Below are positions 31,826-61,156 of a DNA stretch of 64,000 bases, in pieces; within the stretch, counting starts at the first letter, position 1; each line of letters starts with the position of its first letter. Made by a program: the position numbers and the translations under genes. The notes beneath the pieces are model-generated. The model was not told the DNA's origin and searched no databases. It saw only the letters and a program-made list of their open reading frames with translations. Location of the stretch: positions 1 through 64,000 of the forward strand of contig JAFGXY010000025.1 of assembly GCA_016936395.1 (NCBI GenBank). The letters are read 5' to 3'. Origin of the DNA: Paracoccaceae bacterium (GTDB lineage Bacteria; Pseudomonadota; Alphaproteobacteria; Rhodobacterales; Rhodobacteraceae).

Positions 31826-31828
31826 TAC

Positions 31829-35344: not shown

Positions 35345-35345
35345 C

Positions 35346-35675: not shown

Positions 35676-35693
35676 GATCGGCTTGAACAGCGC

Positions 35694-45354: not shown

Positions 45355-45375
45355 TGGTGGGCGATAACGGATTTG
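45355..45375 (+). repeat. attL of island 2 (21-bp direct repeat)
   Basis: The 21 bases starting TGGTGGGCGATAACGG are repeated exactly at 61070-61090, where they form the 3' end of tRNA-Val(CAC). They bracket a 15.7 kb element whose integrase is beside this copy. Confidence 0.92.
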
Positions 45376-45450
45376 TATCACTTTCCTACTGACCGGGGCC
45401 TTGTTTTCCTTAGCTTTTGTTGATTTTCCTTGCGTTTCTGGCACTTTCCC

Positions 45451-45490
45451 ACCATACAAACCTCAATTTCCCACCATACAAACACCATAC
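45451..45490 (+). promoter_or_regulatory. Left arm-type integrase sites of island 2 (ACCATAC)
   Basis: ACCATAC occurs at 45451, 45473 and 45484, the first two as CCACCATACAAA. The same word occurs at 60970, 60981 and 61003 (direct), and inverted at 61064 beside attR. Clustering near both att sites suits integrase arm sites. They lie inside the first 25 codons of the longest integrase frame, favouring a later start codon. Confidence 0.65.
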
Positions 45491-45503
45491 ACGAGTCCCC
45501 CAA

Positions 45504-47036
45504 GTGCCCCCGAAAAGCGCCAAGAACAGCGACCTTCCGCCGTACGTCACCAAGACTCCAACTGGTTCGTACAAGTATCAACGCCGCGTCCCGAAGGACC
45601 TGCAAGAGACCTTCGGGCGGAAGATGTGGGATTACTCACTGGGCAGCAATCCCGCCCACGCGTACCGCATGGCGGAAACCTACCGCACCACGCATGACGG
45701 GTGGATTGCGACCCAAGCGGACCCCGAACAGAAGGCCAAGGAAGAGTCAGTGTGGGCCATGGCCCACCGCGTGCAGGACCTGCAAGACCTCCCCGACCCG
45801 TGGCGGCAGACGCCGGAAGAAATGAAGGCGGCGCGCGCCCTGCCCCCGGCACAGGAATTCAATCGACTGGCAGCCTTCGCCACCGTCGCCTTCGGCGCAG
45901 CCGCCCACGTGGCGCGGGGGTCCGATACGCGGATCACTGTTGAATCGCGCAGCGTCCCGCGCCCCACTGACCCGACCGACGTCCTACTGTATGACGCGTA
46001 CAAGGCCGCGCTGGACGCGCGCCTAGCGCAAATCTCCCCGACAGAGTCCACCGACCCCATGCGCCTGACGGCGCTACTGCCCAAGTACTTCAACGCCCAA
46101 GCCGTCCGCCCGAATACTGCCAGCGGGTACAGCCGCAAGGTGGCCCGACTGGTGAACTTCGCCGGGGATCATGGCTTGCAGCAATATGACGAAGCCACTT
46201 TCCGCGCGTACCGGGATTACCTGATAGCAGGTGACCCAGACGCCAAGCCCAAGCCGTTTGATCCGGTCAAAGCCGCCACGGTTCACCAGTACTTCGCGCC
46301 CCTCAAGGCCTTGTGGAAATGGGCTTCCGACGAATACCCGGAACACAAGGAACTGAGCTTCCCCCGCGTCCGCCTGCCCAAGGACGGGGAAACCGTGGAA
46401 GAAACGCGCTGGCAGGCGTTCGATGATCACCAGATCAAGCGAGTCTGGCAGCTTCTGAATGAGGCATGGGGCGAGAAAGGCGACAGCCGCCTGTCACCGT
46501 CGCGCCGCGCCGCCTTCCTAATGGCGGTCCGGGTGCTTCTTTACACGGGCATGAGGCCTTCCGAAGTCTTCCGCCTGACGGCGGGCGACGTGAAAGACGG
46601 CGGACTCAACATCAGGTACACGAAGACCAAGCAGCCCCGGCGCATTCCCCTTGCCGCCGCCCTGTCCGACTTCCCCGACTTTCTGGCAGCGGGGGGTTTT
46701 GCCGCCGAACTGGAAGCGGGCAGGACCGCCGTTAGGCGGGGTGAGGTGTACGGCAAACCCACCACGCCGGAGTCATTGGCCGGGACCCTGCGCGACCAAT
46801 TCCGGGACGTGATCCGGGCGGGCGGACTGACGAACGATAGGCACGTTCTGTACAGCCTCAAGGACACACTGATTGACCGCCTACAGCGGCAAGGCGCATC
46901 CGATGACGTCATGCGCGGCATCATCGGGCACGTGGGCGGACAGGGCAAACTGAGGCACTACAAGACGCCATTCGGGCAGTCGCCCCATGGTATGGGGCAG
47001 ATGCGCAAGGCGCTGGACGCGATAAGGTACTGGTGA
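45504..47036 (+). CDS. int: Tyrosine recombinase (integrase), island 2
   Basis: This is a 510-aa phage-type integrase, taking GTG 45504 as start. A longer ATG frame from 45417 runs through the arm sites and adds a non-conserved leader. The N-terminal SLRT-like region (GSYKYQRRVPKDLQETFGRK) is followed by a core-binding domain and a catalytic domain. The catalytic domain has Arg in YTGMRPSEVFRL, Lys in RYTKTKQPRRIPL, the box-C segment YSLKDTLIDRL (usually YSFRHT, here Lys-Asp in place of Arg-His), GHVGG, and nucleophile Tyr in LRHYKTPFG. Lys for the second Arg is unusual but known in some phage integrases, as I recall. Confidence 0.88.
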   Translation: MPPKSAKNSDLPPYVTKTPTGSYKYQRRVPKDLQETFGRKMWDYSLGSNPAHAYRMAETYRTTHDGWIATQADPEQKAKEESVWAMAHRVQDLQDLPDPWRQTPEEMKAARALPPAQEFNRLAAFATVAFGAAAHVARGSDTRITVESRSVPRPTDPTDVLLYDAYKAALDARLAQISPTESTDPMRLTALLPKYFNAQAVRPNTASGYSRKVARLVNFAGDHGLQQYDEATFRAYRDYLIAGDPDAKPKPFDPVKAATVHQYFAPLKALWKWASDEYPEHKELSFPRVRLPKDGETVEETRWQAFDDHQIKRVWQLLNEAWGEKGDSRLSPSRRAAFLMAVRVLLYTGMRPSEVFRLTAGDVKDGGLNIRYTKTKQPRRIPLAAALSDFPDFLAAGGFAAELEAGRTAVRRGEVYGKPTTPESLAGTLRDQFRDVIRAGGLTNDRHVLYSLKDTLIDRLQRQGASDDVMRGIIGHVGGQGKLRHYKTPFGQSPHGMGQMRKALDAIRYW

Positions 47037-47136
47037 CGCGCCCGCCGCATAGGCGGACACTGCGCGACAGATAGACGGCTCGCAGACATTCGCCCGCAAG
47101 GACGGATGCGGGCTTGCCCGGTTCGGAATTGGTCAA

Positions 47137-47156
47137 GGCCCCGTTAGGGGCCTTTT
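47137..47156 (+). terminator. Terminator after island 2 integrase (GTTA-loop hairpin)
   Basis: GGCCCC-GTTA-GGGGCC followed by TTTTCC, about 100 bases after the integrase stop. It is a Rho-independent terminator and a member of the GTTA/GTCA/GTGA-loop hairpin family found throughout this island. Confidence 0.8.
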
Positions 47157-47277
47157 CCATTTCTGCGGATGCGCCCGACCACCCGCAAGAATCGCGAACC
47201 GAATCGGCGGCTTTCTTGAATCATCAGCATGGATATGGCACCATGTCAATAACAAAAAACAGAGAACCGCAAGATTT

Positions 47278-47811
47278 ATGCTTACCGTCAGACAGCAAGA
47301 CTTCCTCGAAGCTACCGGCCTGAAAAGCCGTTCCGTCACCCTCAAGTTTAACGGGCTGCCCGCGACGTACGCCGGGCGATTCAAGACCTATGAGCTTGGC
47401 TCTGTGCTGCCCTTGCTGGGGCGCAAGCACGCCGGGGCAGCCGTGGCCCTTCTGGACCGCGCCCGCGACTCCGGCAACAGCTTCGTGGGCGGTGACGAAG
47501 TGCTTGGTTCCTGCGCCCGTCTTGAAGACTGGGTCCGAACGAATGTTCCGGGCGGCGAACTGCGACTCCACCAAGTGCGCACTTCGTTCTTCGATGGGCT
47601 GGCCCGTGGCGTTCGCACCAATGGCTTGACCGCCGATGTAGAGCGACTCCGCCTTCTTGTGATCCGCACGCCGGGCGCGCTGCGCTACATCCTGACGGGT
47701 GACGCGGCGGGCCTGCCCTCCGACTGGCCCACTTGGGCGCGCCACTTCGCGTTGCTGCATTCGGCCCGGTCCAACCTGACCAGTGAACTTGTGCAGGGGG
47801 AAGCGGCATGA
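47278..47811 (+). CDS. Hypothetical protein, first of the island 2 early operon
   Basis: This 177-aa protein's N-terminus (LTVRQQDFLEATGLKSRSVT) could form a helix-turn-helix, followed by an alpha-helical body (VLPLLGRKHAGAAVALLDRA). First gene after the integrase terminator, with its own leader of AT-rich sequence. It starts a run of five genes linked by overlaps. A regulatory role is a guess from position. No family is recognised. Confidence 0.65.
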   Translation: MLTVRQQDFLEATGLKSRSVTLKFNGLPATYAGRFKTYELGSVLPLLGRKHAGAAVALLDRARDSGNSFVGGDEVLGSCARLEDWVRTNVPGGELRLHQVRTSFFDGLARGVRTNGLTADVERLRLLVIRTPGALRYILTGDAAGLPSDWPTWARHFALLHSARSNLTSELVQGEAA

Positions 47812-48074
47812 ACGAACTGTCCGCCCTTCGCAGACTCGCCCTTTCGTCTTCGCGGGCCTGCGCGCGCCTGCATCGGATGGCGGGCGGCACCGACGCCGGA
47901 ATCCTTGCGGCGCTGGAAGACAAGAACGCGCTGACGGCTGCCATTGCAGCCGCCCACCGGATCGCCGCCCGCGACGTCGCCCGGCTCACTGACCCGCTGG
48001 TGACGTCCGACGAACCCGCCACCCCCACGCTTGCGGACGTTGAACACGTGCGCTTCATGAACCTTCACGGATGA
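47808..48074 (+). CDS. Hypothetical protein, island 2
   Basis: This 88-aa Ala/Arg-rich helical protein (MNELSALRRLALSSSRACAR, ALTAAIAAAHRIAARDVARL) overlaps both neighbours by ATGA, so it is translated as part of the operon. No family is recognised. Confidence 0.6.
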   Translation: MNELSALRRLALSSSRACARLHRMAGGTDAGILAALEDKNALTAAIAAAHRIAARDVARLTDPLVTSDEPATPTLADVEHVRFMNLHG

Positions 48075-48559
48075 CCCCCAAAATGAGCTTTGAATATCCC
48101 CTGACCGCGCGCGAACAGGCGCGCCTTGACGCAGTAACGGACAAGATTGCTTCCGACCTCGCCGCCGAAGGGCTGAGCGTGGATCGCGCTGACCTCCTGA
48201 AATTGCCCAGCGTCCGCCTCTTTATTCTGAGCGAGGGCGCTGGCCTGCCCAATAACTATCTTGATGAGGTGAAGCGGTCCGCGCCGTCTGTGGCGGAACA
48301 GATGCACAAGCGTGAGCTTGCCCGGCAGCTTGAGAACACCGAGTCCGACCTCCACAAGACCCTCGCACAGATGAACAGCTATCAGCGCATGGCCTATGGC
48401 CGCGAACTGGAAGCCATTCAGAAGGCGCAGAAAGCCGCCGAAGGCGCGGGCAAGCCCGCAATGTCCATCGAAGACGAAGCCACGGTTATCAACCTCATTC
48501 GCCGCACTGCGGACCCCGCCACCAAGATCAACATCGCGCGCGCGGCGGGGCTGATCTAA
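48071..48559 (+). CDS. Hypothetical protein with coiled-coil region, island 2
   Basis: This 162-aa product (MTPKMSFEYPLTAREQARLD...) has a charged helical middle (KRELARQLENTESDLHKTLA) likely to form a coiled coil. It overlaps the gene before (ATGA) and the one after (TAATG). No family is recognised. ATG 48083 (MSFEYP) is an alternative start. Confidence 0.6.
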   Translation: MTPKMSFEYPLTAREQARLDAVTDKIASDLAAEGLSVDRADLLKLPSVRLFILSEGAGLPNNYLDEVKRSAPSVAEQMHKRELARQLENTESDLHKTLAQMNSYQRMAYGRELEAIQKAQKAAEGAGKPAMSIEDEATVINLIRRTADPATKINIARAAGLI

Positions 48560-48960
48560 TGCGGGGCGGGGTGATTCACTTGGACGACCTTCACGCGGAC
48601 GTGCTTGCAACGCCCGGCGCGTGCCTCTTGCTTGTCGCGCGGGCGCGGCTTTCGGCTGAAAAGCACAATCGCCCCTTGGACGCCATGCTGGCGGACTACC
48701 TGTCGCAGACGGCGAAACTGCGCGGCGCGCTGTACGAAGCCCGTGGGCGGAGCCTTCGCACGGTCCTTGAAATCGTGGACGACGAACGAAACGACTTCTA
48801 CCGCGCGCGGATGCGTGAAGCCGCCGAAAAGGAAGCCGCTGCCCAGACCCTGCACGACTTCGCGCGGCAGGTGACCCACACGGCGGAAGGTATCGTCCCC
48901 GGCGTCTTGGAGAACGAAGACCCGCACCCGGCGGAGTCGGAAATGGCGGTGGCGGCATGA
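48559..48960 (+). CDS. Hypothetical protein, island 2
   Basis: This 133-aa helical protein (LLLVARARLSAEKHNRPLDA, VDDERNDFYRARMREAAEKE) is coupled to its neighbours by start-stop overlaps. No family is recognised. Confidence 0.6.
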   Translation: MRGGVIHLDDLHADVLATPGACLLLVARARLSAEKHNRPLDAMLADYLSQTAKLRGALYEARGRSLRTVLEIVDDERNDFYRARMREAAEKEAAAQTLHDFARQVTHTAEGIVPGVLENEDPHPAESEMAVAA

Positions 48961-49193
48961 TCACCCCCCGCGCGCGCGAAGTAATCGACTACATCCGCCG
49001 CCATGGCCTTAGCGTTCACGCGTCTTTTGGCCCCCTGCGCCGTGGAACTGTCCGCCCCTTTGTGGGTGGCGGGACCGTTACCGAAGCAGAGTACCGCGCC
49101 ATTCTGGCCGAACTCTATGTCCCCGCCCAGAACGTGGACGGCGCAGAAATCGCCCACGCGCGCGCCCGTGGTGCGGCTGCCCGGTGGAATTGA
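48957..49193 (+). CDS. Small hypothetical protein, island 2
   Basis: This 78-aa protein (MITPRAREVIDYIRRHGLSV...) could be a small winged-helix or DNA-binding protein judging from the helix at residues 4-15 and basic end, but this is weak. It is last in the coupled run, followed by hairpins. Confidence 0.55.
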   Translation: MITPRAREVIDYIRRHGLSVHASFGPLRRGTVRPFVGGGTVTEAEYRAILAELYVPAQNVDGAEIAHARARGAAARWN

Positions 49194-49205
49194 TCTAAGT
49201 TAGCC

Positions 49206-49262
49206 CGGCGACCGCGTCAGCGGTCACGGATGGACGGGTGACGGGGTCACCCTGTCGCGGCT
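49206..49262. terminator. Two hairpins after the early operon of island 2
   Basis: GACCGC-GTCA-GCGGTC (49208-49223), a member of the island's GTNA-loop hairpin family, is followed by GGGTGAC-GGG-GTCACCC (about 49237-49253). Neither has a long T-run, so termination or processing is inferred. Confidence 0.45.
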
Positions 49263-49339
49263 GCCAGCGCAGCCATTGCCCACGGCAGACGGGCCAAGTC
49301 CTGCCAACCCCTCCCCATTCCCTACTGAAAGAATCGGAA

Positions 49340-49732
49340 ATGGCTATCGCAGCCCGTGACCTCCCCCCTGCCGTCCGCGCGGAAATGACCGGACGCACCG
49401 AAGATCAGCTTCTGGAACAGTACACCGCAATTCTGGCCGGGGTGCTCAACAAGCACTATTCCAGCCCGCCCGCGACCTTCTACATCGACGCTGACGAACT
49501 GATTGAACTCATGGGGCGCAAGTACGCCTTCATGGCCGCAACGCGCTTGAAATTTGAACTCTGGGATTCCGGCCTGTGGTGCCGGGCGATTGGCCCCGTG
49601 GAAGGTGAGGTGGACATTCACCCCCGCAAGCTCTTCGGGCAGGTTCTGGCGGCGCGGTCCTACATTGACCCGCTGGGGCTTCTGGATGAATTCCATATCG
49701 GCGCATCGCCGGAACTGCGCGGCGGGGCGTAA
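49340..49732 (+). CDS. Hypothetical protein, island 2
   Basis: This 130-aa product from ATG 49340 (MAIAARDLPPAVRAEMTGRT...) contains a mixed alpha/beta middle (PPATFYIDADELIELMGRKY). The frame extends upstream to 49238 through the hairpin region, so the shorter start is chosen. It is followed one base later by the next ATG. No family is recognised. Confidence 0.55.
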   Translation: MAIAARDLPPAVRAEMTGRTEDQLLEQYTAILAGVLNKHYSSPPATFYIDADELIELMGRKYAFMAATRLKFELWDSGLWCRAIGPVEGEVDIHPRKLFGQVLAARSYIDPLGLLDEFHIGASPELRGGA

Positions 49733-49733
49733 A

Positions 49734-50015
49734 ATGGGTGAACCCTTCGTCCTCGACTCTTGCCCGGTCCGCCGCCGGAACCGGGCAGACCGCCGCCTTC
49801 GATTTGCCGCCGCCGCAGCAGCCCGCGAAGGGTGGACGCAGGAACAGCTTGAAGCCGAAGCCGAAGCCTTGGCGGCAGAGATCGAGAGGCGCGTAGCGGC
49901 TGGGGAAATCACCCGCTGCAAGCCGACCCCGCCGCCTTCGTCCAAGGCCGGGCGTGGGCTTGAAGCCGAAGTGTCGGGTTTGCTGCGTAGCTGGACGCTG
50001 CCCGACGCCGCATGA
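49734..50015 (+). CDS. Hypothetical Arg/Ala/Glu-rich protein overlapping iteron-like sequence
   Basis: This 93-aa frame (MGEPFVLDSCPVRRRNRADR...) has a Glu/Ala helix (QEQLEAEAEALAAEIERRVA). The DNA coding LEAE (CTTGAAGCCGAA) at about 49849 and 49959 matches the iteron core found just downstream, so part of this gene may be shaped by, or have given rise to, those repeats. No family is recognised. Confidence 0.5.
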   Translation: MGEPFVLDSCPVRRRNRADRRLRFAAAAAAREGWTQEQLEAEAEALAAEIERRVAAGEITRCKPTPPPSSKAGRGLEAEVSGLLRSWTLPDAA

Positions 50016-50021
50016 AGGACG

Positions 50022-50198
50022 CGGCTTAAAATCTGAGGCCGCGACATTAAAGCAACACCCGCCCAAAAGCCCCCGAAACAATCGAAGCCTTAAATTCGGC
50101 TTCAAGCTCAATTCTGAAAATGGAAATCAGCTTTAAGCCGAACTTGGAATTTAGCTTGAAGCCGAATTCCGGGCTTAAATTAGGCTTGAAGCCGAATT
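50022..50198. repeat. Iteron cluster AGCTTGAAGCCGAATT upstream of the primase-helicase, candidate origin
   Basis: The 16-bp unit is seen at 50153-50168 (exact), 50183-50198 (GGCTTGAAGCCGAATT), 50129-50144 (AGCTTTAAGCCGAACT), and inverted at 50093-50108. Related palindromes GGCTTAAA and GAAGCCTTAAAT lie between them. The core GGCTTNAAGCC is itself an inverted repeat. The stretch is AT-richer than its surroundings and contains no gene. It probably binds the replication protein encoded from 50528. Confidence 0.7.
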
Positions 50199-50346
50199 AG
50201 TAAATCGCGCGCGCCTTAAAATCGGAAAAAGTGCAAATCCGGCGAAAACAGACCCGCTGGAAAAATGCGCGCCACCCGCGCCAAACCCTTCTTTCTAGGC
50301 CAGAATCGGGCATATTAACCCCAGATCGCACCAAAAGGAGGACCGA

Positions 50347-50514
50347 ATGCCTGTTATCCAATTCCCCAATGCAGACACCGAAACCCAGATCATCCTTGTA
50401 TCGGATTTGCTGGCCCGGACTGCACAGAAACCCATGACGCCCGGAAATCTCGAAAGGGTGAACAACCTCGCCCGCCGCGTCATGGAGCTGACCCAAACTA
50501 ACCCCACCCACTGA
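50347..50514 (+). CDS. Small hypothetical protein before the primase gene
   Basis: This 55-aa frame (MPVIQFPNADTETQIILVSD...LTQTNPTH) has the best Shine-Dalgarno in the island (AAAGGAGGACCGAATG). It ends 13 bases before the primase ATG. Predicted helical with a conserved-looking 'NLERVNNLARRVMEL'. The strong ribosome site and spacing support a real gene, perhaps a partner or regulator of replication. No family is recognised. Confidence 0.65.
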   Translation: MPVIQFPNADTETQIILVSDLLARTAQKPMTPGNLERVNNLARRVMELTQTNPTH

Positions 50515-50527
50515 GAACGAAAGCCCA

Positions 50528-53500
50528 ATGGAAGCCTCTCACAACTTCGACACCGCCGAACCCGCCCCGGTTACGCCCGGCGAACCCGTCTACACGAATG
50601 ACGCGGTCATGCTGGGCGTTGAAACCGACGCTTACAACGCCATGCTTGAACAGCCCGCCACCTTCCTGACGGGCGAGCTTTGGGGCGCGAAGGATCGCCG
50701 CAACACGCAGGACGAGGAATGGAACCCCGTCACCCTGACTTGGGCGCAGTGGATTGCAGGCGGACCCGGTGACAAGAACACCGCGCCTTGGGGCTTCTCG
50801 CGCCACCCTGTGAACAAGAGCAAGGCCGGGGCCTGTATCGTGCTGGGATCGTCCATCGGACGCGCCCGGAAGGCCAAGGCCATGGATATGATGTACGCCA
50901 TGGGCATCGACGTCGACGCCGGGTTCCCGCTCGACCTGATGCTGGATCGGCTCGAAGAGCTTGGCCTGTTCTGCATTGTATATACTAGCCACAGTCACGG
51001 TCGATCCGGGATGCAGCTCAAGCATGACGAGGTCATCCGCAAGCTCAAGATCAAGCCTTCCGAGCTGGACCTTGCACAGGTGCAGCGCTACCTGCGCGAC
51101 CATGACAAGAACCGGTACGAAGAGTCGTTCATCGCGGCAGTTTCGATCAAGACCTTGAAGAAACAGGTCAAGGAAGGTGTGGTGATCGAACTCGATACGC
51201 CGCCCTTGGACAAGTACCGGCTGATTTTCCCGCTGGCAGCGCCGGTCAAGATCATTGACCTTGCCGACACCCACGCGGCGGCGCTGGAAGTCTGGGAAGA
51301 CAAGATTACCGGCCTTGCCCGCGAAATGCTGGGCGTGCACTTCGATACGTCCTGCACCGACCCTTCGCGCCTGTTCTTCACGGCCCGTCACGCCAAGGAA
51401 GCCGCAGACTGGTACTGCGCGATTGTGCAGGGTGACCCGCTGCGCTTTGAAGACGTGCCCACCGTCCGCAAGGCGGACTATGCACGGAACCGCGCGTCCA
51501 GTGCCATGAACCCCTTCGAACAGGCAGGCGGCGCAGCCGACACCGAACGCCCGCCGCAGTGCTTCACCCCTTCCGGCGCGTCCTTGAACGAATGGCACTA
51601 TCGGGCCAAGGACCGCTTCCAGATGGCGAACCTTCTGGAAGACCTGTGCGCAGATCGTATCCGGGTAGCGGGTGGCGAAGCGCAGGGGCAGGTCCATATC
51701 GAATGCCCGTTTGAGCATGAGCATTCCAGCGAAGGCGGGACCGCCTGCGATGCACGCAACGCGCTGGACAGCTCTTCCGGTTTCTGGACGTGGGGCTGCC
51801 TCCATGACGCATGTCAGGGGCGGCACAAGCTGGAATTCCTTGAAGAGGCGCTGCGGCAGGGCTGGTTTGACGAAGAACAGATCGCCTTTGAATCGGTCTA
51901 CATGCTGGAAGGAGGGGAGTATGACGACGAAGAGGAAGACGGCGAAGACGGCGAACCCGTAAGGGCAGAAGCCGGGGCACAGATCAGCGCAGCCGCCCTG
52001 CACAAGCGTTTCAAGAAGATCATTCGCACCGGATACGCAACGGGCGAAGACCTCGACGCTATCGCGCAGGGACAGAAGGATACCGGCTTGACGCAGGCCA
52101 AGGTGCAGAAGCTCTGGGATGCTGCGCGCAAGGAAGTTTTCGACGAACGGGCCGAAGCCACCCGCGAGAAGCGGCAGGCAGCGCCCCGCCCGGAATTCGT
52201 ACCGCTCGAACAGGCTACCGTCCGCAGCGTGGAACGCGCGGGAGAGAATGCCGCGTGGCTGCCTGACTTCGTCCAGTACCGTTCGGACGGCTGGTTCTAT
52301 GCCATTGACCCTGACAAGCCCAAGGAATGGGTCCGCGCCTGCCGGGCGTTTGAGGTTCCGTACATCGCTTTTGGTGAAGGCGAGGACGGCAAGCGCACGA
52401 ACGAAATCACGATCCGGTATCGCCACCGCTCGAAACAGCGCGGCATCGTGGAGTCGACGTATCGAATTGGCGACACCTACCGAGACACGGGGTCTTTCCT
52501 GTCGGCTCTGGTGGACGAAGGATTCGAGATTGACCCGCAGGTCAGCGCCGGGACGATTGTTCGCCTTCTGCGCGCCGTGGACACCTCGAATGAGGCGGTC
52601 TTGATCGAGAAGGCGGGGTGGCACGGCAACACCTATGTGTCGCCTTCCGGCGCTGTAGCGAACGCCGGGGATCAGCGGTTCATCCTGAGACCCGAGAAGC
52701 GTATCAGCGCCAAGACGCAGGGCACGCTTGCCGAACACCACGCCGCCGCGACCACCGCCCTGACGGGCGCGACCGGGAATATTCTCCTGCCGGGCTATCT
52801 GTCCGGTCTGGTAGGCTGCCTTGTCAACTTCATTGACCATGACCTGTCCCCGGTCATCTCGAACGAGGGCAAGGCCAAGCACGGCAAGACCTCTGTCGTT
52901 AAGATGAGCGCTGCCCACTTCGGCCCGCCCGACACGACCGGCCTTTTCGGCAAGGCAGACGCCACCGCCACCGCGATTGAAAACCTTGCGGAACGTGGAA
53001 ACGGCGCAGTTGTCGCGATGGACGAAGGCGGGGCGTCCAAGGCGGACTCGGCAGAATGGCAGCGCCTTATCTTGCAGTGGGCCGACAACATCGGGCGTGG
53101 ACGCGGCAAGCAGGACGGCGGCATTCAGCGCACCAAGACGTGGAAGACCTGTTTCCTTCTGTCGTCGGAAATCGGCACCGTTGCCGCGATGGAGTCCGCC
53201 GGTATCGACATTAAGACCGGCGCTGTCTCGCGGGTGTTCATCGTCAACTTTGACGGCGCGCCGCTCTTGGACAAGGCCGGGCCTGAGGTGGCGGCAATCC
53301 GCATCCTGTCGGGCGATGACAAGGAACGGGCTGTCTACGGGGTAAGCGGGATCGTCTTTGCCGAGAAGCTGGCACAGGTAGGCAGGGAAGCGGTCCGGGC
53401 GCGCGTTAGCGCGCTGGAAGCTGAATGGGCGGACCTTGCCAAGGGCGCGGGTGACCGGATCGTCGCCACGGCGGCAATCCTGACCGTTGCCGGGGAGATC

Positions 53501-54064
53501 GCGCAGGAAGCCGGTCTGTTCTGTGAGGCGGTCAAGGTCCGCGAGACCATGCGCGCGCTTCTGGTGGACACTCTGGAAGCTGGCAAGGCTCACCTCGATA
53601 CCGAAAAGCAGAGTATCGAGAAACTGCGCCGGGCCATTTTGCAGGGCGTTCGGACCGGTACCATTGTGACCGTCCATGAAGACCGCGACCCGTCGCGGGT
53701 GGACGTGCTGGGCTACTGGGGCCATTTCTCGGACAACGGTTCGCCTGACCATGGGGCGGAGGCGTGGTGGGGAAAGAAGATCAGGGAAGCGGTCAACAGC
53801 GGCAAGGACGTGGAACGGGTAGAGGCTGACGAACGCGCGGCTCGAACCTACATTTTGCCGCTGGACCGGCTGGGCAAGCTGGGCATCCTGACTGGTGAAA
53901 AGGCCCTGATTGATCGTCTCGACAAGGAAGGGGCGCTGGTGAAGCGCAAGAAGGGCGACCGGTTCCAGCGATGGCACGAATACCTGCCGGGCGAGGGTAA
54001 CAGGATCAAGAACCTTCGAGTGACCGGGGCCTTCGTACACGGCGAGGAAGAGGGGGACCGCTAA
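50528..54064 (+). CDS. Multidomain primase-helicase (AEP-like, zinc finger, DUF927 helicase), island 2
   Basis: This 1178-aa protein is the island's likely replication initiator. Residues about 80-270 look like an AEP primase with catalytic acids in MGIDVDAGFP and later YTSHSHGRSG and KYRLIFPL. Residues about 395-450 carry a possible zinc finger (ECPFEHEHSS, CDARNA, WGCLHDACQG). Residues about 590-1000 match a DUF927-type helicase: a beta-rich front part (GWHGNTYVSPSGAVANAGDQ), P-loop NEGKAKHGKTSVVKMS, Walker B GAVVAMDEGG and LLSSEIGTVAAM. It ends with a winged-helix-like region. A terminator overlaps its stop. Confidence 0.85.
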   Translation: MEASHNFDTAEPAPVTPGEPVYTNDAVMLGVETDAYNAMLEQPATFLTGELWGAKDRRNTQDEEWNPVTLTWAQWIAGGPGDKNTAPWGFSRHPVNKSKAGACIVLGSSIGRARKAKAMDMMYAMGIDVDAGFPLDLMLDRLEELGLFCIVYTSHSHGRSGMQLKHDEVIRKLKIKPSELDLAQVQRYLRDHDKNRYEESFIAAVSIKTLKKQVKEGVVIELDTPPLDKYRLIFPLAAPVKIIDLADTHAAALEVWEDKITGLAREMLGVHFDTSCTDPSRLFFTARHAKEAADWYCAIVQGDPLRFEDVPTVRKADYARNRASSAMNPFEQAGGAADTERPPQCFTPSGASLNEWHYRAKDRFQMANLLEDLCADRIRVAGGEAQGQVHIECPFEHEHSSEGGTACDARNALDSSSGFWTWGCLHDACQGRHKLEFLEEALRQGWFDEEQIAFESVYMLEGGEYDDEEEDGEDGEPVRAEAGAQISAAALHKRFKKIIRTGYATGEDLDAIAQGQKDTGLTQAKVQKLWDAARKEVFDERAEATREKRQAAPRPEFVPLEQATVRSVERAGENAAWLPDFVQYRSDGWFYAIDPDKPKEWVRACRAFEVPYIAFGEGEDGKRTNEITIRYRHRSKQRGIVESTYRIGDTYRDTGSFLSALVDEGFEIDPQVSAGTIVRLLRAVDTSNEAVLIEKAGWHGNTYVSPSGAVANAGDQRFILRPEKRISAKTQGTLAEHHAAATTALTGATGNILLPGYLSGLVGCLVNFIDHDLSPVISNEGKAKHGKTSVVKMSAAHFGPPDTTGLFGKADATATAIENLAERGNGAVVAMDEGGASKADSAEWQRLILQWADNIGRGRGKQDGGIQRTKTWKTCFLLSSEIGTVAAMESAGIDIKTGAVSRVFIVNFDGAPLLDKAGPEVAAIRILSGDDKERAVYGVSGIVFAEKLAQVGREAVRARVSALEAEWADLAKGAGDRIVATAAILTVAGEIAQEAGLFCEAVKVRETMRALLVDTLEAGKAHLDTEKQSIEKLRRAILQGVRTGTIVTVHEDRDPSRVDVLGYWGHFSDNGSPDHGAEAWWGKKIREAVNSGKDVERVEADERAARTYILPLDRLGKLGILTGEKALIDRLDKEGALVKRKKGDRFQRWHEYLPGEGNRIKNLRVTGAFVHGEEEGDR

Positions 54065-54078
54065 CGCGGTCCCTTTTC
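54054..54078 (+). terminator. Terminator overlapping the primase-helicase stop
   Basis: GGGACCGC-TAAC-GCGGTCCC followed by TTTTC. The stem begins within the last codons and includes the stop region. The loop TAAC is the complement of GTTA, so this is another member of the island's hairpin family. Confidence 0.8.
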
Positions 54079-54088
54079 ACATGGGCAG

Positions 54089-54484
54089 TTGTCCATCCGA
54101 AAAGGGCGCGGACAACAGACGGACGAACGATTTTCCAATACTTATCAATGCCTTAAGGAAAATCTCGTCCATTTGTCCACTTGTCCACGGCGCTGGACAG
54201 AGACAGACACAAACGCAGAAATCGACACAGCGACATGATGGCTTCGAAGACACTACGAAGGGGTGCCCCGCAGGGCTGACACTCTGAATTGCTGAAAGGG
54301 GTCTAGCTCTATCTATACGTACAAATGGACAAATAGGACAAACAAATGAAAAAGACCCAATAAAACAAGGGTTTTTCGGGGCCTTTTGGTTTGTCCAGCG
54401 TTTGTCCATTCGCGGCGGGTGGACAACAGGCCTGCGCCCACCCCGCCGGATTGCCGGGACCCCGCGTTAGCGGGGTGGTGGACA
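54089..54484. repeat. TTGTCCA/TGGACAA repeat cluster
   Basis: TTGTCCA is at 54089, 54173, 54181, 54391 and 54402. TGGACA(A) is at 54194, 54326, 54420 and 54479. Nine copies in about 400 non-coding bases, with pairs spaced 8-11 bases apart. It could be a second iteron set, a repressor-binding region, or a partition or packaging site. The function is unknown. Confidence 0.6.
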
Positions 54485-54507
54485 GTCTGCCCCCGCGTTA
54501 GCGGGGG
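54460..54507. repeat. Tandem GTTA-loop hairpins
   Basis: CCCCGC-GTTA-GCGGGG (54460-54475) and CCCCCGC-GTTA-GCGGGGG (54490-54507), separated by 14 bases. Both have perfect stems and neither is followed by a T-run, so they are not plain terminators. Confidence 0.7.
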
Positions 54508-54809
54508 AACCCCCCGAACGCCCCCCGCCCTGTGGGGACGTTTTTCTTATCTATATCAGATACTTGAACGATATCCCCCCGACCCCCGCGATTCCGGTGG
54601 GTGGTGGGGAATGGACGGGGGACACGCACACCCCCACAGACCTGCCCGCCGGTGTGTGTGTCCCCTCTCTTCCTTCTTTAACTTATCAAAAGTACTGGGG
54701 ATTGGGGGGGTAGGGCCAAAAGGCATTGAAATTAAAGGGAAATACCGCCCCCACACCATTGGGGGTTGGCGGGGGGCACGGGGGGCGACCCCCAGACCGG
54801 CCCGCTCGC

Positions 54810-55043
54810 CAAACGATTTTGGTGGTGGAAGGAAAGTCGGTCCGCTCTCGCCTGTTGGCACCCCGCGAAGCCGCTGACCTCATGGGCCTGCCAGCAAGCT
54901 ACACCCTGCCCCCCCGCTACAATGACGCGTACCACGTGGCAGGCGATGGAGTGGCCGTGCCTGTTGTGGCGCATTTGGCGCGACACATCTTTGAACCCGT
55001 GCTTGCCTTCGCAGACGGTCATCTGTCGGTCGCCGCCGAATGA
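54810..55043 (+). pseudogene. C-terminal remnant of a C5-cytosine DNA methyltransferase
   Basis: About 77 residues match the end of Dcm-type methyltransferases: RLLAPREAADLMGLPASY (motif IX region) and YNDAYHVAGDGVAVPVVAHL (motif X). The cofactor motif, the catalytic PCQ and the target-recognition domain are absent, and GC-rich low-complexity sequence stands in their place. So the enzyme cannot methylate. Its stop overlaps the DUF4928 start (ATGA), as in an intact restriction-modification operon. Confidence 0.8.
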
Positions 55044-55980
55044 CTGAGCTGCATACGGCCCTGAGCGACTTTGCCACCAGTCGACGTTTCAAGAGCAAAG
55101 GCCCGCTTTGCGTGGCGCTGGTGGTGACCGACCACGCCCGGAAGACCCTACCTCTGGACCCCGAAAAGCTACTGACTGCACAGGGCGGGCAGGTTCTGGG
55201 GCTGGGCAAGTCTGCGGTCCAGAAGATACTTGAGAAGCACGGCATAACCCGCCTTTTGGCGTCCGAAGGCGGGCGCACCAGCCGGGGCAGCATCGACAAT
55301 ATGCGGGCATATGTGGGCCTGTTGAACGGACTCCACGCCACCGGCACCGTGGACCTAGACGCGGTAGAAAAATTCTGGATCACACAGGTTGAAGCCTTCT
55401 TTGCCGGGAAGCCCTTCAAGCTCAGGCTGGACTCGTCCTTGGGCTTGCGTGCCGTGATCAGAAACTTGGTCGCGCAGGCAGAAGAACGGCAGAAGGCGTC
55501 AGCGGGTACGATGTACCATGGCACGATGATGCAACACCTTGTGGGCGCGAAACTGGACTTGGTGCTTGGCGTGGGCAACGTCACACACAACGGCGCGAAC
55601 ACCAGCGACCAGAAGCCCGACCGGACGGGGACTTCGACATTGGCGATGTGTCGATTCACGTGTCGACTTCACCGGGCGAAGCCTTGATCCGAAAATGTGC
55701 CGCGAACTTCGACGCAGGACGCCGCCCCATGATCGTGACCACCCGGAAGGGTGTGGTGATCGCAGAAGGCCTTGCCGAAAACATCGGCATAGGTGACCGG
55801 CTAGACGTGATCGAGTTTGAACAATTCGTCGCGACAAACCTGCATGAGCTTGGCAGGTTCGAAGCCGAACAGCGCCGCATCAAGGTTGGGGAACTGATCG
55901 CCCGATACAACGAAATCGTGGACGAATTCGAGACCGACCCAAGCCTTCAAATCGAAATTTCCTCTGGCAAGGCTTCCTGA
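55040..55980 (+). pseudogene. DUF4928 protein (methyltransferase-linked), frameshifted
   Basis: The first frame (55040-55687) reads MTELHTALSDFATSRRFKSK, then GLGKSAVQKILEKHGITRLL and MMQHLVGAKLDLVLG, the DUF4928 pattern, and goes off family after KPDRTG. The rest (DFDIGDVSIHVSTSPGEAL, IKVGELIARYNEIVDEF) is in another frame to 55980. One base lost near 55625-55633 explains it. DUF4928 genes commonly sit beside C5-methyltransferases, and a restriction-related role is suspected. With the methyltransferase gone, inactivation would be expected. Confidence 0.75.
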
Positions 55981-56155
55981 GCCGAACCCCGAAAACCCCC
56001 TTCCAGCCGCCGCGCGCCTCAGTTGCGAATCATTCTCAACTGGTGCACATTAACACGATCTAAAGAGTCGTGATTAAGCCCCCGCGCCACCCCCGGAAAA
56101 CCGATTGTTTCCGATTCAAGTCATTGATTTGACTCCACTTTTCAGCATGGGCCTG

Positions 56156-56193
56156 ATACAAACTAGCCTAATGGTCGTAGCGCCGGTTTGTAT
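56156..56193. promoter_or_regulatory. Inverted repeat ATACAAAC...GTTTGTAT before the serine recombinase
   Basis: ATACAAAC (56156-56163) and GTTTGTAT (56186-56193) are a perfect 8-bp inverted repeat with a 22-nt spacer, ending 15 bases before the recombinase ATG. It may be the recombinase's own binding or crossover site, or an operator. Confidence 0.5.
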
Positions 56194-56207
56194 TCGAAGG
56201 ATTCGCC

Positions 56208-56882
56208 ATGAAGATCGTCACCTATACCCGCGTCAGCACCGGCAAGCAGGGGCGCAGCGGACTCGGCCTTGAGGGGCAGGAAGCCGCGATTGCCGCCTAT
56301 GCCGCCGCTAACGCGGCCCATATCGTCGGGGCGTTCACCGAAGTGGAGTCGGGCCGGAACAATGCCCGCCCGCAACTGCAAGCTGCCCTCAAGCTGGCCC
56401 GCGTGACCGGCGCTAAGCTGGTGATTGCAAAGCTGGACCGACTGAGCCGGAATGCCGCTTTTCTCCTTAATTTACAGGAGTCTGGGGTGGACTTCGTGGC
56501 CTGCGACAACCCCACTGCCACCCCCCTGACCATTGGCATTCTCGCCCTTGTGGCACAGGACGAAGCCCGCGCTATCAGCGAACGGACCAAAGCCGCACTG
56601 AAAGCCGCTAAGGCCCGTGGGCAGGCCTTGGGCAACCCGAACGGGGCAGAAGCCCTGCGCCGGGCAGGCAAGGGGAATGGGGCTTCCTGTGAGGCACAGA
56701 AGGCAGCCGCGCTAACGCGCGCCCACGACCTCGCAGACACCATCGCAGACGTGGAAGCTCAGGGTCACACCACCCTTGCAGCTATCGCGGCGGAACTGAA
56801 TCGGCGCGGGATCAAGACAGCGCGCGGGGGGATGTGGCACGCTTCCAGCGTGGCGAATGTGCGGCGCAGGCTGGTGGCCTAG
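56208..56882 (+). CDS. Serine recombinase (resolvase/invertase family), island 2
   Basis: This 224-aa site-specific recombinase has the nucleophile Ser in YTRVSTGKQG (residue 10), followed by LGLEGQEAAI, the conserved Arg-rich KLDRLSRNAAFLL and the long E-helix (EARAISERTKAALKAAKARG). A C-terminal helix-turn-helix region (TTLAAIAAELNRRGIKTARG) is seen. It could resolve replication multimers or act in an inversion or a second integration pathway. It has its own promoter region with an inverted repeat and a terminator after it. Confidence 0.92.
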   Translation: MKIVTYTRVSTGKQGRSGLGLEGQEAAIAAYAAANAAHIVGAFTEVESGRNNARPQLQAALKLARVTGAKLVIAKLDRLSRNAAFLLNLQESGVDFVACDNPTATPLTIGILALVAQDEARAISERTKAALKAAKARGQALGNPNGAEALRRAGKGNGASCEAQKAAALTRAHDLADTIADVEAQGHTTLAAIAAELNRRGIKTARGGMWHASSVANVRRRLVA

Positions 56883-56883
56883 C

Positions 56884-56902
56884 CCCGCGTGAGCGGGCAT
56901 TT
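56884..56902 (+). terminator. GTGA-loop hairpin after the serine recombinase
   Basis: CCCGC-GTGA-GCGGG followed by CATTTTGCC, directly after the recombinase stop. It belongs to the island's hairpin family and is a likely terminator. Confidence 0.65.
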
Positions 56903-57377
56903 TGCCAAACCTCACATTGTCCCCACTGCCGCGACAGTCGGGCTGCGAACCGCCCCCAAAATATAGGTCCTAGGGTCCCTTGAGGGGGTATATATAGGGG
57001 GTCCCGAAGGCGGGCAGTACCCGTCAGCGAGTTGCAGAGCAACTTTTCAGTTTCCAAACTGGCGACAATGTCAGGTTTATGAATCCGGCGTTGCACCCCT
57101 GTTGACGCGTACAACTTCGCCCCCAAAAGTGCGGGCCAGAACTAAACAACTCCCCTAAATCGTTGCACAAAAGGTGAACCATTCGGGGCCAGTTGCTTTG
57201 TGGTGCGCCGCGCCTGTGGTATCATTCAGAAGTCGAGTGGAGAGCTGCGCGGGCGGGCGGTTCTGGGTCTTCGCCCGCCCGCGTCTTTCTCCCTGACCCC
57301 GACAAACTCCCTCCCTCCCCCCGCGCCTGTGCTGGACCCAGCACGCCCCGACAGGCAATAGCGCGAAAGCTCTTCCC
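56903..57377. other. Non-coding region before the tape-measure gene
   Basis: About 475 bases without a supported gene. It holds G-rich repeats around GTATATATAGGGGG (56988-57001), a palindromic GTGCTGGACCCAGCAC near 57329, and presumably the promoter of the tape-measure gene. No recognisable phage control site was found. Confidence 0.45.
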
Positions 57378-60300
57378 ATGACCGAAGCCGTACACAGCCT
57401 TCAACTTAAGATCGACGCCGCCGCCGCCGAAGCTGGCAGCAAGCGTTTCACTGCCGCCCTGTCCGCCGTCAAGAAAGCCGTCTCGGACCTTGACCGCGCG
57501 GCAGATGGCACCTTTGCCAAGCTCGCCAATCACAAGCCGCAGTTTGACGTTGCCCCGCTGACGCGGGCCACGACCGAAGCGAACCGCCTGTCCACCGCAC
57601 TTGCCGGAACTGGCAGCGCGTCTGACCGTGCCGCCGCCACCATCCAGCGCACGGCCCTTGCCAGCGCTTCCGCCGTCCGCATGGCGGAACAGGCGACCCA
57701 GCGCCTTGCCCTGCGCATGGGGGACCTTGGCGATACGCAGGGCGTAGCGTCCCTGAATTCTGCCCTCGCGCAGATGAAGGTCAGCCTTGTGAACGCGACG
57801 TCCACCTTGGACGTCCGCCGGGCAAAGTCGCAGTTTGACGACCTGCGGTCCGGTCTGTTGCAGGCGACCGTTGCGGCAGAGTACGCGCAGGGGGAACAGG
57901 CACAGCTCGCCCGTGAGCTGGAACAGACGGGCCGCGCAGCCCAGCAACAGGCCGAAGCCCTGTCCCGTCTTCGGGCAGCCCATGACCCCCTGTTCGCCGC
58001 TTCCCAGCGTTACGCCACTGCCTTGAGCGAGATCGACTCGCTTGTCGCGGCAAACATGGTTTCTGAGGCGCAGGCGTCCGCCATGCGGGAACGTGCCGCC
58101 GCCACGTATCTGGCAATGGGAAGCGCGGCTGACACCTTCGCCGGGCAGGCGCGCAACGGCGCGATGGCCGCGCAGCAAGTGGGCTTCCAGCTCAATGACA
58201 TTGGCGTCATGCTCGCGGGCGGTATGTCCCCCCTGTCGATTGCCGTCACGCAGGGGACCCAGCTTGCCCAGACCTTCCAAGGGTTGAAGGGTAGCACCTC
58301 TATTCTGTCGACGCTGGCAGGCGGTTTCGCCGCCATGTTCTCCCCGGTCTCGCTGGTGACCATTGGCGTGATCGCGCTGGGGGCGGCAATCGTCCAGTGG
58401 ATGACTTCCGGCAGTGACGCCACCAAGGACTTCGCCACGGCGCTGGCGGACGCGGATTCCGCTATCTCTTCCATGCGGCAGGCCACCGACACCCTTGCCG
58501 GGGCCACCCTTGGCAGCCTTGCCGAAGGCTATGGGCGGGTAAACGCGGAACTGCAAACGCACCTTGAGAAATTGCAGGAAATCAGCCGTATCGAAGCTAC
58601 CCGCGCCACCGCTGACGCCTTCACCGCTGTAGGCAGTGAATACCTTGGCGGATGGCTGACCACGGACGTGGACGATATGCGCATTGCATTCGAGACCACG
58701 AACGACCAAGCCCGCGTGCTTCTGCGTATGCTGGACCAGATCAAGGCCGCGCGGACCTTCGAAGAACAGTTTGCCGCCGTCCAGAAGATGCGCACCGAAG
58801 TTGAAAGCGTGACCGGCGGACTCAAGAATGCAGAAGGCGGCGCGCTGGCCTTCTTGATGCAGCTCATCAAGGCCGAAGACGCCGGAATCCGCTTGAAGGC
58901 TGCCACGGATGGCACCGCCGGGGCAGCGGACAACGCGTCTGGGGCTGCCTCTGGCCTTGCCTACACCATTGGCACCGCCGCCGATGAAGCCGCCCGCCTT
59001 CTCATGAACCTGAATTCGGTTCCGGGCGCGCTGGCAGTCATGGGCAAGAGCGTGGAAGGGCAGATTGCCAGCATCCGCGCGCAGAACCGGGCCTTGAGCC
59101 TTGAACTGTCGGAAGGCCTGTCCAGCGCCGCCGCTAACCGCCGGGTGCAGCTTGAAACCATGGTGACCACCGCGAACGAACGCGGGCAGCGGATTACGCC
59201 CGACGCTATCGCCGCCGAATGGATGAAGATTAACGAACTGGACGCAGCCGCGAAGGAAACGGAACAGCTGCGCAATCAGATCACCGAACGCAACCGCCCG
59301 GCACGTTCCGCCGGGGGTGGCGGAGGTGGCAGACGGACTGCCGCCCTCACCGAGGAACAGAAGGCCACCGAAGAGCTGAACACCACCCTGACTGAACGCC
59401 TTACCTCTCTCGAACAGGAACGGCTTGCCCTTGAACTGGTGGCGTCCGGGCAGTTTCAGACTGCGGAAGCCGCGCAGCTTTTCGCAGAAGCAATGACGGC
59501 GGGCGGGGGCGCAGTGGACGCGCAGACCGCCGCCATGATTGCCCAGATCGACGCCGCCGCGAAGCTGAATGAAGAACTCAAGAAGCTGGCAACGGACCCG
59601 GTCAAGGACTGGATGGATTCCGTTCCCAACTGGATCGAGGCCGGAAAGCAGATCGAAATGGGGGCTATCAACAGCCTGCGCGACTCCATCGCGGATATGA
59701 TCAAGACCGGCAAGCTGGACTTCGAGTCCCTTGGCGAAGCCATTCTGGGCGTCTTCGCGGACGTTGTGTCCGACAAGGCGGTCAAGGAACTCTTGACCCT
59801 CTTCGGACGCGGGGAAACCGGTTCGGGCGGGTGGCTTGGCGGTCTGTTTGGTGACCTCTTCGCCTCTCAGGGCGACTCGGACGTGGCGGGCATGGTGAAC
59901 GGCGGAACGCAGGCGGGCGCAGTGATCGGCAACAGCATGATTCAGGCCGGGCAGGTAGTTTCCCAGCAACTTGCCGCCGCGATGGCTCAGGGCGGTATGC
60001 AGGCCGGGGCGTCCGCGCAGTCTGGCCTTGCAGCGGGCAGCGTGAACGTCCGCACCGCCGCGCAGACCGGTCTTGCAGTCGGTTCCGCGAACATTCACAC
60101 CGCCGCCACCTCTAGCGCCCCTGTACTCGCGCAGGGCGTTGTCAGCGGGGCACAGCAAGGCGCGCCTATCCTTGGTCAGGGCGTAGCCATGGGCGCAGCC
60201 GGTGGCGGGGGGGCTTCCTGTCCAGCATCGGCGGAGTCGGCGGTCTTCTGACCATGGCCTTGGGCGCATTCTCGGAAGGTGGCGTGTCCACCTCGCCCGT

Positions 60301-60598
60301 GGGCTTCGCCGCCATGCCCGCTTCTGCATTCCGGCACGCCCCGCACTTCTCGCAGGGCACCCCGAACACCAGCGGCATTCCCGCCGTCCTGCATCCTAAT
60401 GAGGCGGTTATTCCCCTGTCGCGTGGACGGAAGATTCCGGTGGAAATGGGAGACAGCGCCGGGGGCGGAACGATCATCCACGCGCCCCAGACGATCAACA
60501 TTCAGACCCCGGACGCGGACAGCTTCCGGCGCAGCCAGAAACAGATTGCCGCCGATATGGCCCGCGCCGGGCAGCGGGCAGTCAGTCAGAACGGATAA
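57378..60598 (+). CDS. Tail tape-measure protein, expressed across a -1 frameshift at a G7 run
   Basis: Tape-measure proteins set tail length and help DNA exit in long-tailed phages. The first frame (57378-60251, 957 aa) has coiled-coil N-terminal repeats, the family hallmark VGFQLNDIGVMLAGGMSPLS (about 274-293), a hydrophobic stretch (SLVTIGVIALGAAIVQWM) and a Gly/Ala-rich end. The conserved C-terminus (FSEGGVS, PAVLHPNEAVIPLSRG, INIQTPDADSFRRSQKQIAA) is in the -1 frame to 60598. Backing up one base within GGGGGGG at 60207-60213 joins them as GGFLSSIGGVGGLLTM, giving about 1073 aa. It could be programmed slippage, a real mutation or a miscounted homopolymer. Confidence 0.85.
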
Positions 60599-60608
60599 GG
60601 AGTCCGAT

Positions 60609-60848
60609 ATGAGCGGTTATGTGTACGCGGGCGTGCCGTCGCCCTTGGGCATGTATGACGACCTCCACCACCAGCGGAAGACCGAACGCCTGCGCGCCCT
60701 GTTTGAAGCTGGCGTGCCTGTCATCGCATCGGGTGACGGCTTGACCGCCACGCCCGCGCCGAACTCTAGCCCGCGCCCGCCGCGCGACACGTGGAACGAC
60801 AGCGCGCCTGTAGATGGCGACGGGGAACTTGGCGCTGCGGAATGGTGA
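60609..60848 (+). CDS. Small hypothetical protein after the tape-measure gene
   Basis: This 79-aa protein (MSGYVYAGVPSPLGMYDDLH...DGELGAAEW) has a strong AAGGAG Shine-Dalgarno, 10 bases after the tape-measure stop. It is rich in Pro and acidic residues. No family is recognised. It is the last gene of the island and is followed by a terminator. Confidence 0.65.
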   Translation: MSGYVYAGVPSPLGMYDDLHHQRKTERLRALFEAGVPVIASGDGLTATPAPNSSPRPPRDTWNDSAPVDGDGELGAAEW

Positions 60849-60860
60849 CTGAGCTAGGAA

Positions 60861-60882
60861 GGGGCCAGCTAGGCCCCTTTTC
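60861..60882 (+). terminator. Terminator at the right end of island 2
   Basis: GGGGCC-AGCTA-GGCCCC followed by TTTTCC, 13 bases after the last gene. A clear Rho-independent terminator that shields the tRNA region. Confidence 0.85.
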
Positions 60883-60969
60883 CTTATCGGTGGCTTACCG
60901 GTGGCCCCCGCGTCAGCGGGCACCTAGCCCTGAATCGGCCCGAAAAGCCCTTATCGGGGACCGTCCGCT

Positions 60970-61070
60970 ACCATACACGCACCATACGAAAAGGCCCGCT
61001 CCACCATACACGGTGAGCGGGCCTTCTTTCTAAGTGCTTGATTTTCCTTCGGAAAATCTTGCGGTATGGT
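60970..61070. promoter_or_regulatory. Right arm-type integrase sites of island 2
   Basis: ACCATAC at 60970, 60981 and 61003, and inverted (GTATGGT) at 61064 touching attR, mirror the left-arm cluster. A GCCCGCTC...GAGCGGGC hairpin spans 60994-61023 within the same region. Confidence 0.65.
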
Positions 61071-61090
61071 GGTGGGCGATAACGGATTTG
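61070..61090 (+). repeat. attR of island 2
   Basis: This second copy of the 21-bp repeat coincides with the last 21 bases of tRNA-Val(CAC), including the CCA end (61070-61072). The tRNA is kept intact, as usual for tRNA-targeting integrases. Confidence 0.92.
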
Positions 61091-61144: not shown

Positions 61145-61156
61145 GTCGGCGCTCTC

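Follow-up and report, generated by a model that had tools for sequence, protein, structure and literature searches.

A putative family of alphaproteobacterial phage satellites carrying a hybrid, shortened tape measure

The 64,000-nucleotide stretch analysed here (the window; positions 1 to 64,000 of contig JAFGXY010000025.1, from the Paracoccaceae bacterium assembly GCA_016936395.1) carries, between two tRNA-Val genes, a 15.7 kb island (45355–61090) that encodes a tape-measure protein (TMP). The best explanation, with an estimated probability of about 0.7, is that the island and its relatives are integrative satellites which exploit large siphophages of the RcXuper/DSS3P8 type and have them build chimeric, shorter tails by means of the satellite's own tape measure. 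The island, its family, the hybrid nature of the protein, the helper-like half of the primase, the DNA elements in common with the helpers and the purifying selection are read from the sequences themselves.

Helper-like ends and foreign middle of the tape measure

Twenty-three satellite TMPs of at least 850 aa were compared with the TMPs of five helper phages, using the best ungapped identity in 36-aa windows and a background of reversed sequences. This profile replaced BLAST without composition correction, which gave long TMP alignments at about 22% identity. Short or cut proteins were left out (627 aa as called in locus L105, 508 aa in L116, and those of L043, L053 and L060). Identity to the helpers reaches at least 50% at the N-terminal end of 22 of the 23 proteins (the exception being L117) and at the C-terminal end of all 23, the latter being expected since most loci were found by this end. 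Between aa 130 and 600, it never exceeds 45% in any of the 23 proteins and its medians (28–33%) are those of the background (mean 31%, 95th percentile 36%, maximum 44%, n = 244). Outside this region, a weak bump (41–50%) is found near aa 85–130 in many TMPs and L117 reaches 61–63% near aa 109–157. As controls, the TMP of the temperate phage Pkon1 does not exceed 38% against the helpers, and that of RcXuper scores high against the other four along much of the protein, dipping near aa 890–1200. The helper-like parts are the first ~50 and the last ~280–420 residues; in the window, aa 6–49 and aa 654–934 are 66% and 67% identical to RcXuper, respectively.

The satellite TMPs are 854–1090 aa long (median 1027) vs 1815–1909 aa for those of the five helper phages. 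According to Pfam, the middle of the RcXuper and DSS3P8 proteins is a TMP_3 module; the satellite proteins harbour TMP_2 (14/23) or TMP_3 (1/23) and, in 16/23, Tape_meas_lam_C domains, and part of the middle resembles temperate phages (for example 44% identity to Pkon1 over aa 271–501). Judged by their sequences, the satellite tape measures are hybrids with helper-like ends and a shorter, foreign middle. This organisation suggests that the helper is made to build shorter tails for the satellite, and gives strong sequence support to the proposal of an earlier note on this DNA that the island may reprogram the tail of its helper.

In phage TP901-1, both TMP ends were reported to be essential for assembly, and deletions to shorten the tail linearly (PMC5099701). 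The likeness lies in the ends being kept, part of the rest being removed and the tail being shorter; the TP901-1 deletions were made in the laboratory, whereas the present hybrid is natural and carried by a separate element. DSS3phi8 has a tail of ca. 300 nm (PMC4961962) and the DSS3P8 TMP has 1825 aa, which corresponds to about 0.16 nm per residue; by this arithmetic, proteins of 1030–1080 aa would give satellite tails of about 170–177 nm.

The ratio of non-synonymous to synonymous substitution rates (dN/dS) of the TMP is 0.09 (first frame of the window vs L031), 0.14 (L102 vs L045) and 0.11 (L041 vs L100). It is 0.086, 0.082 and 0.085 for the middle alone in three pairs, 0.08–0.20 for the C-terminal part and 0.13–0.24 for codons 1–50. 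Purifying selection acts on the foreign middle, which ranks first or close to first in constraint among the segments of the protein. Values of 0.12–0.18 were obtained for small operon proteins and, in the window, of 0.22 for the 114-aa C-terminal piece of the TMP, 0.33 for the serine recombinase and 0.22 for the integrase.

The strong constraint on the middle strengthens the argument drawn from length and bears on two other readings of the hybrid protein. Firstly, it might be a defence protein that competes for the tube and tip of the helper, so that stunted, non-functional tails are made and the population is protected, the island itself not travelling in such tails. The helper-like ends would permit such competition, defence genes (ThsB, Old, AbiJ, restriction) are part of the cargo of the islands and the protein Rta of PLEs (phage-inducible chromosomal island-like elements) attacks the tape measure of the helper (PMC12987554). 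However, a blocker should need neither a long middle constrained like the ends nor the TMP_2 module that most of these middles hold, which makes this interference quite improbable. Secondly, the swapped central module might alter DNA ejection, namely the passage through the inner membrane, and give entry to hosts in which the module of the helper works poorly. The strong conservation of the middle, its partial resemblance to temperate phages and the presence of TMP_2 in most satellites where both helper middles are TMP_3 agree with this proposal. It is compatible with tail shortening but by itself leaves the about-half length of all 23 proteins unexplained, and is unlikely as the whole explanation.

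In the window, the tape measure, which has TMP_2 and Tape_meas_lam_C domains, is broken into two pieces on the + strand that both match phrog_9807 (a tape-measure family with 1972 positions): a first frame of 957 aa (57378–60251) and, in a different frame, a C-terminal piece of 114 aa (60254–60598; 81% identical to aa 1793–1899 of the RcXuper TMP). The frame is lost close to a G-run, at about 60204–60251; this break may be natural or an assembly error. Programmed frameshifting was rejected because the tape measures of relatives are single open frames, including that of the IMG/VR contig L031, intact and 94% identical to the window's. The same viral contig, whose tape measure is the closest to the window's among the viral contigs, harbours, at 1811–3225, two head-to-head serine recombinases (61% and 80% identical to that of the window) adjoining an HNH-like gene and a structural-looking gene (by eye).

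The island family and the virion genes looked for

A profile search of genome contigs with an alignment of the C-terminal region of the tape measure gave 26 loci. A primase relative of at least 800 aa lies within the retrieved stretch in 18 of them, L056 retains only a fragment and none is found in seven: five at a contig end, the remnant L053 and the phage L063. In 16 loci, the tape measure is followed within 3 kb by a tRNA gene on the opposite strand. A TMP match was obtained in 30 of 394 genomes of the bacterial family. Those looked at were the genome of the window and the four with the best scores (G046, with two islands, G047, G228 and G382); the matches in the other 25, like the second and weaker ones of two of these four, probably correspond to tape measures of ordinary prophages.

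Twenty-two longer regions, nearly all chosen by their TMP (L100–L117, L032, L033, L045 and the window), were then compared. They originate from many genera of Rhodobacterales (21 regions) and from Hyphomicrobiaceae (one), with two regions each in Sinirhodobacter and Ruegeria sediminis. Besides the TMP (22 regions), they encode the primase (20), the conserved small protein c2 (16), a serine recombinase (14), an integrase of either of two types (14) and the small protein c4 (13). The gene order, which the earlier note suggested looking for in relatives, varies, and the content is similar: the tape measure precedes the primase in L117, the primase is on the opposite strand in L033 and the recombinase follows the tape measure in L105. 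The length from att to att, exact in eight islands, is 14.8–16.1 kb; att repeats were found in eight of 11 tRNA tests (one of just 15 bp) and no repeat in the three others. As phage satellites do, the islands integrate at an att site by a recombinase of their own.

When 36 RcXuper proteins were compared with the 22 regions by tblastn, only the TMP (22 regions), gp133 (17), an integrase (five), TerS2 (three) and gp56 (one) had matches. No homolog of the RcXuper portal, major capsid protein, large terminase subunit (TerL), tube, tail chaperone or minor tail proteins was detected in these regions. In addition, 142 other island proteins of at least 60 aa were scanned, the statements made here covering the first 25 of 58, 32 and 91 families listed. 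No tail chaperone is named among the first 25 of the 58 PHROG families, and no capsid, portal or terminase family except the small terminase is among those listed. The small-terminase-like protein (29–35% identical to that of the helper) is found in L106, L114 and L116. One further tail-type gene is present in three regions: L107 (14430–14906), in which the gene after the TMP is 62.6% identical to RcXuper gp56 (neck/tail completion) and is a second captured helper part, L111 (a minor-tail protein, phrog_14) and L105 (a tail assembly protein, phrog_32). Genes for an autonomous virion appear to be missing, as in satellites. The view of the earlier note that the tape measure is the lone virion gene of the island holds in that no other virion protein was recognised, the gene itself being in two pieces.

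The earlier note had reasoned that relatives carrying terminase, capsid and more tail genes would make the island a decayed prophage; apart from the few single-gene exceptions above, no homolog of those of RcXuper was found among the 22 regions. A prophage that decayed while keeping its integrase, primase and tape measure could account for the broken frames of the window copy, the L053 remnant with its 178-aa TMP piece and the L108 region with only a primase fragment. It is nevertheless very improbable, as such decay would hardly leave 22 regions of many genera alike in gene content, with islands of similar length and no match to the RcXuper head and tail genes listed above. Furthermore, dN/dS values near 0.1 are not relic-like, and homologs of the RcXuper tube, chaperone and minor tail proteins neighbour the TMP gene in L063 alone of the 26 loci (Rhizobium, 1736-aa TMP).

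Probable helper phages and proposed lifecycle

The TMP and primase matches in a phage collection point to one group, comprising RcXuper, DSS3P8, V10, MAL1, MD18 and RpAliso, with weaker matches in Caulobacter, Brevundimonas and other large phages. RcXuper, DSS3P8, MD18, RpAliso and MAL1 are siphophages of 146–150 kb; DSS3phi8 was described as a lytic CbK-related siphovirus (PMC4961962) and MD18 as lytic (PMC7643831). An 'immunity repressor' is annotated in both RpAliso and RcXuper, and the latter has annotated tyrosine integrases as well, so that strict lysis is not certain for these two. The sequence links make this group the probable source of helpers. A resident prophage, with which the earlier note proposed a comparison, was considered and discarded as helper: the host assembly (91.5% complete) holds no other tape-measure match at E 0.001.

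The large primase-helicase announced by the earlier note is a protein of 1178 aa (50528–54064, + strand) whose N-terminal half is helper-like (aa 19–564 are 69.5% identical to RcXuper gp133; the DNA is 79% identical over 1356 bp) and whose C-terminal half is its own, with a DUF927 domain (aa 602–869; Pfam). The iterons seen by the same reader lie 5' of this gene: four copies of a 21-bp near-palindrome, the AATTNRGCTTGAAGCCGAATT element, were found at 50093–50198, with seven matches on both strands to the 21-mer at up to three mismatches vs 0.00 expected. One copy is identical to RcXuper 137252–137272 (21/21). The 13-mer GCTTGAAGCCGAA occurs eight times in RcXuper 100–148 kb vs 0.00 expected, six of these copies being located 79–88 bp 5' of an annotated gene start. 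The core motif GCTTSAAGC is the most over-represented 9-mer of RcXuper 100–148 kb (37 vs 1.4 expected) and of DSS3P8 97–146 kb (29 vs 1.37), and ranks seventh in RpAliso 99–149 kb (16 vs 1.15). It is 12-fold denser in the 1.2 kb before the satellite primase (28 in 22.8 kb vs 23 in 230 kb elsewhere; 12 of 19 islands); leaving out the window, where it was first noticed, gives 23 in 21.6 kb vs 23 in 217 kb (11 of 18 islands).

A hairpin, CCGCGTNAGCGG, with variable but complementary arms, is common to helper phages and satellites. Of its 11 copies in the host assembly (3.07 Mb), eight are in the island (window 49212, 54058, 54462, 54493, 56305, 56885, 57555 and 60908), none in the rest of the window plus the next 20 kb, and the pattern read backwards occurs four times in all. 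RcXuper has 25 copies, and 20 of the 21 other regions have one or more when their flanks are counted; in seven of the 20 regions with a primase, a copy lies within 30 bp of its 3' end. An intrinsic terminator was rejected for this element, as its contexts are not consistently T-rich and it occurs in both orientations and also inside genes. Between the integrase and the small-gene operon, 33 bp (47077–47109) are 94% identical to RcXuper 400–432 on the other strand, and are a possible packaging or regulatory site.

Taken together, these data allow a lifecycle to be proposed, in which the identity of the helper, induction, incorporation of the protein into tails, tail length and packaging are predicted. 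After infection by the helper, a helper DNA-binding protein that uses GCTTSAAGC would act on the cluster that precedes the satellite primase gene. The satellite would excise, replicate by its own primase-helicase, whose N-terminal half matches that of the helper, and make its own tape measure. The N-terminal ~50 residues of the latter would fit the tail terminator or connector of the helper and its C-terminal ~280–420 residues the tail-tip initiator complex, while the shorter foreign middle would set a shorter tail and bring a different central module (mostly TMP_2 instead of the TMP_3 of the helper). Tube, chaperone, tip and heads of the helper would complete chimeric particles, their tails measuring roughly 170 nm vs about 300 nm.

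Several observations weigh against this lifecycle. The family is known from its sequences, from which particles, induction and transfer are predicted. No packaging signal was identified in the island and the small-terminase-like gene is restricted to three of the 22 regions, the window not being among them; no tail chaperone homolog was found in these regions, unlike in PLEs. The GCTTSAAGC cluster is absent from seven of the 19 islands. The window copy may be inactive, given the broken frames of its tape measure and cargo genes. Satellite traces in viral contigs are few, L031 being the only one found by TMP, and a close-relative search of viral contigs with the N-terminal half of the primase gave none. 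Lastly, the C-terminal domain of the TMP also occurs outside phages with long TMPs: viral contigs that carry it together with tail-gene neighbours encode TMPs from 1102–1168 aa (L086, L087 and L089) up to 2218 aa (L071), and the TMP of L093 has 941 aa. In the viral contig L074 (78–9907), first considered as a satellite fragment and dropped since it looks like a phage, a 919-aa TMP frame with the same domain, close to the start of the contig, precedes tail-tip genes that look lambda-type. Another phage with a short TMP may therefore be the true helper of some satellites, and the lone lambda-type tail genes of L105 and L111 suggest that some may use an L074-like phage. These short-TMP phages somewhat weaken the argument from length, which the constraint on the middle had strengthened, and the estimate given above for the RcXuper/DSS3P8-type helper reading is unchanged.

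Island layout and relation to known satellites

The 21-bp att repeats at tRNA-Val(CAC) reported in the earlier note were found again as exact copies at 45355–45375 (attL) and 61070–61090 (attR), the second being the 3' end of the tRNA gene (61070–61144, − strand), which is the sole match of an Rfam scan. All genes of the island are on the + strand. The integrase, also named there, is of the tyrosine type (45504–47036; DUF6538 and Phage_integrase by Pfam/PHROG; relatives in nine of 22 genomes searched). The small-gene operon opens with c4 (47278–47811), which is conserved in alignment and has no Pfam or PHROG match. It continues with c10 (47808–48074; 4/22 regions), c2 (48071–48559; conserved in alignment, dN/dS 0.12 vs L102), c13 and c19 (48559–49193; both have relatives in L102, and c13 also in L112) and two more small genes (49340–50015) with relatives in L100 and L102 (49340–49732) and in L048, L054 and L059 (49734–50015). 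A 55-aa open reading frame (ORF), c7 (50347–50514; 5/22 regions), lies 5' of the primase gene. Between the latter and the recombinase gene, the cargo consists of a damaged type II restriction-modification pair recognised by domain search (54822–55980), of which the C5 methylase is reduced to its C-terminal end and the DUF4928 restriction enzyme is split into two ORFs. Defence cargo, namely ThsB/TIR, Old-like, AbiJ, restriction and methylase genes, is common in the islands among the matches listed. The serine recombinase, equally in agreement with the earlier note, is small and has a Resolvase domain (56208–56882; cluster c3). That note had also placed the tape measure last, with its own terminator; a conserved 79-aa ORF, c11 (60609–60848; 4/22 regions including the window), comes after it, and no terminator was detected in a scan of 60500–61150 by the criteria used. 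The window harbours another island at a tRNA-Cys (23307–35700), with an integrase, a primase-like 747-aa gene and, judging by the gene calls alone, genes that look like terminase, portal and protease/capsid; this second element may be a satellite that forms capsids, residing alongside the tape-measure one in a single genome.

Among known satellites, phage-inducible chromosomal islands (PICIs) redirect packaging through their own small terminase; here, a small-terminase-like gene exists in the three regions mentioned above. P4-like satellites carry a psu/sid/delta module, which is not among the first 25 of the 58 PHROG families listed for the 142 island proteins. Capsid-forming PICIs (cf-PICIs) make their own heads from a capsid, portal and terminase module, whereas the 22 regions have no homolog of the RcXuper counterparts. 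Like the present islands, cf-PICIs are satellites of tailed phages and carry putative tmp genes (PMC12987554). Satellites of Escherichia coli likewise encode a putative TMP and few tail genes, but also major capsid and decoration genes (PMC10448857), of which no homolog of RcXuper's is found here.

The closest parallel is with PLEs, which are satellites of a large phage with their own tape measure and defence genes, and whose TMPs are built into shorter chimeric tails, an outcome predicted here. They are described as the first family known to make chimeric satellite tails; according to the authors, it is unknown how incorporation is made selective, and what the satellite gains has yet to be deciphered (PMC12987554). 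The claim that no described class brings only its own tape measure therefore has to be narrowed: PLEs do carry one, together with a tail chaperone that is conserved across PLEs and sometimes a baseplate hub (PMC12987554). The present islands lack a chaperone homolog, and their tape measure, present and hybrid, is predicted to be incorporated into tails. Furthermore, the TMP of PLE11 differs from that of the helper ICP1 by 95 aa and is 20% identical to it (PMC12987554), whereas the present TMPs have about half the helper length and closely helper-like ends. ICP1 is contractile and infects Vibrio cholerae (PMC12987554); here, the helper would be non-contractile and the hosts are different. Among the matches listed in searches of the open-access literature on satellites with a tape measure or chimeric tails, on Rhodobacterales and on the helper names, the family is not described.

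The wider proposal, which is put forward tentatively, is that of a natural ruler swap in an undescribed alphaproteobacterial satellite family: a single hybrid tape measure would cut the helper tail to about 55–60% and replace the DNA-ejection module, giving the satellite its own virion form and possibly its own host range. Evolution seems to have run a clean experiment many times, with both docking ends kept, the ruler replaced and no chaperone. The hybrids name the probable docking surfaces and predict a large, easily measurable change (~125 nm), in a helper group with cultured phages and with non-pathogenic hosts such as Rhodobacter, Ruegeria and their kin. If this is true, it would become testable why satellites change tails, whether for cheaper or faster particles, for the exclusion of the helper or for a new ejection route.

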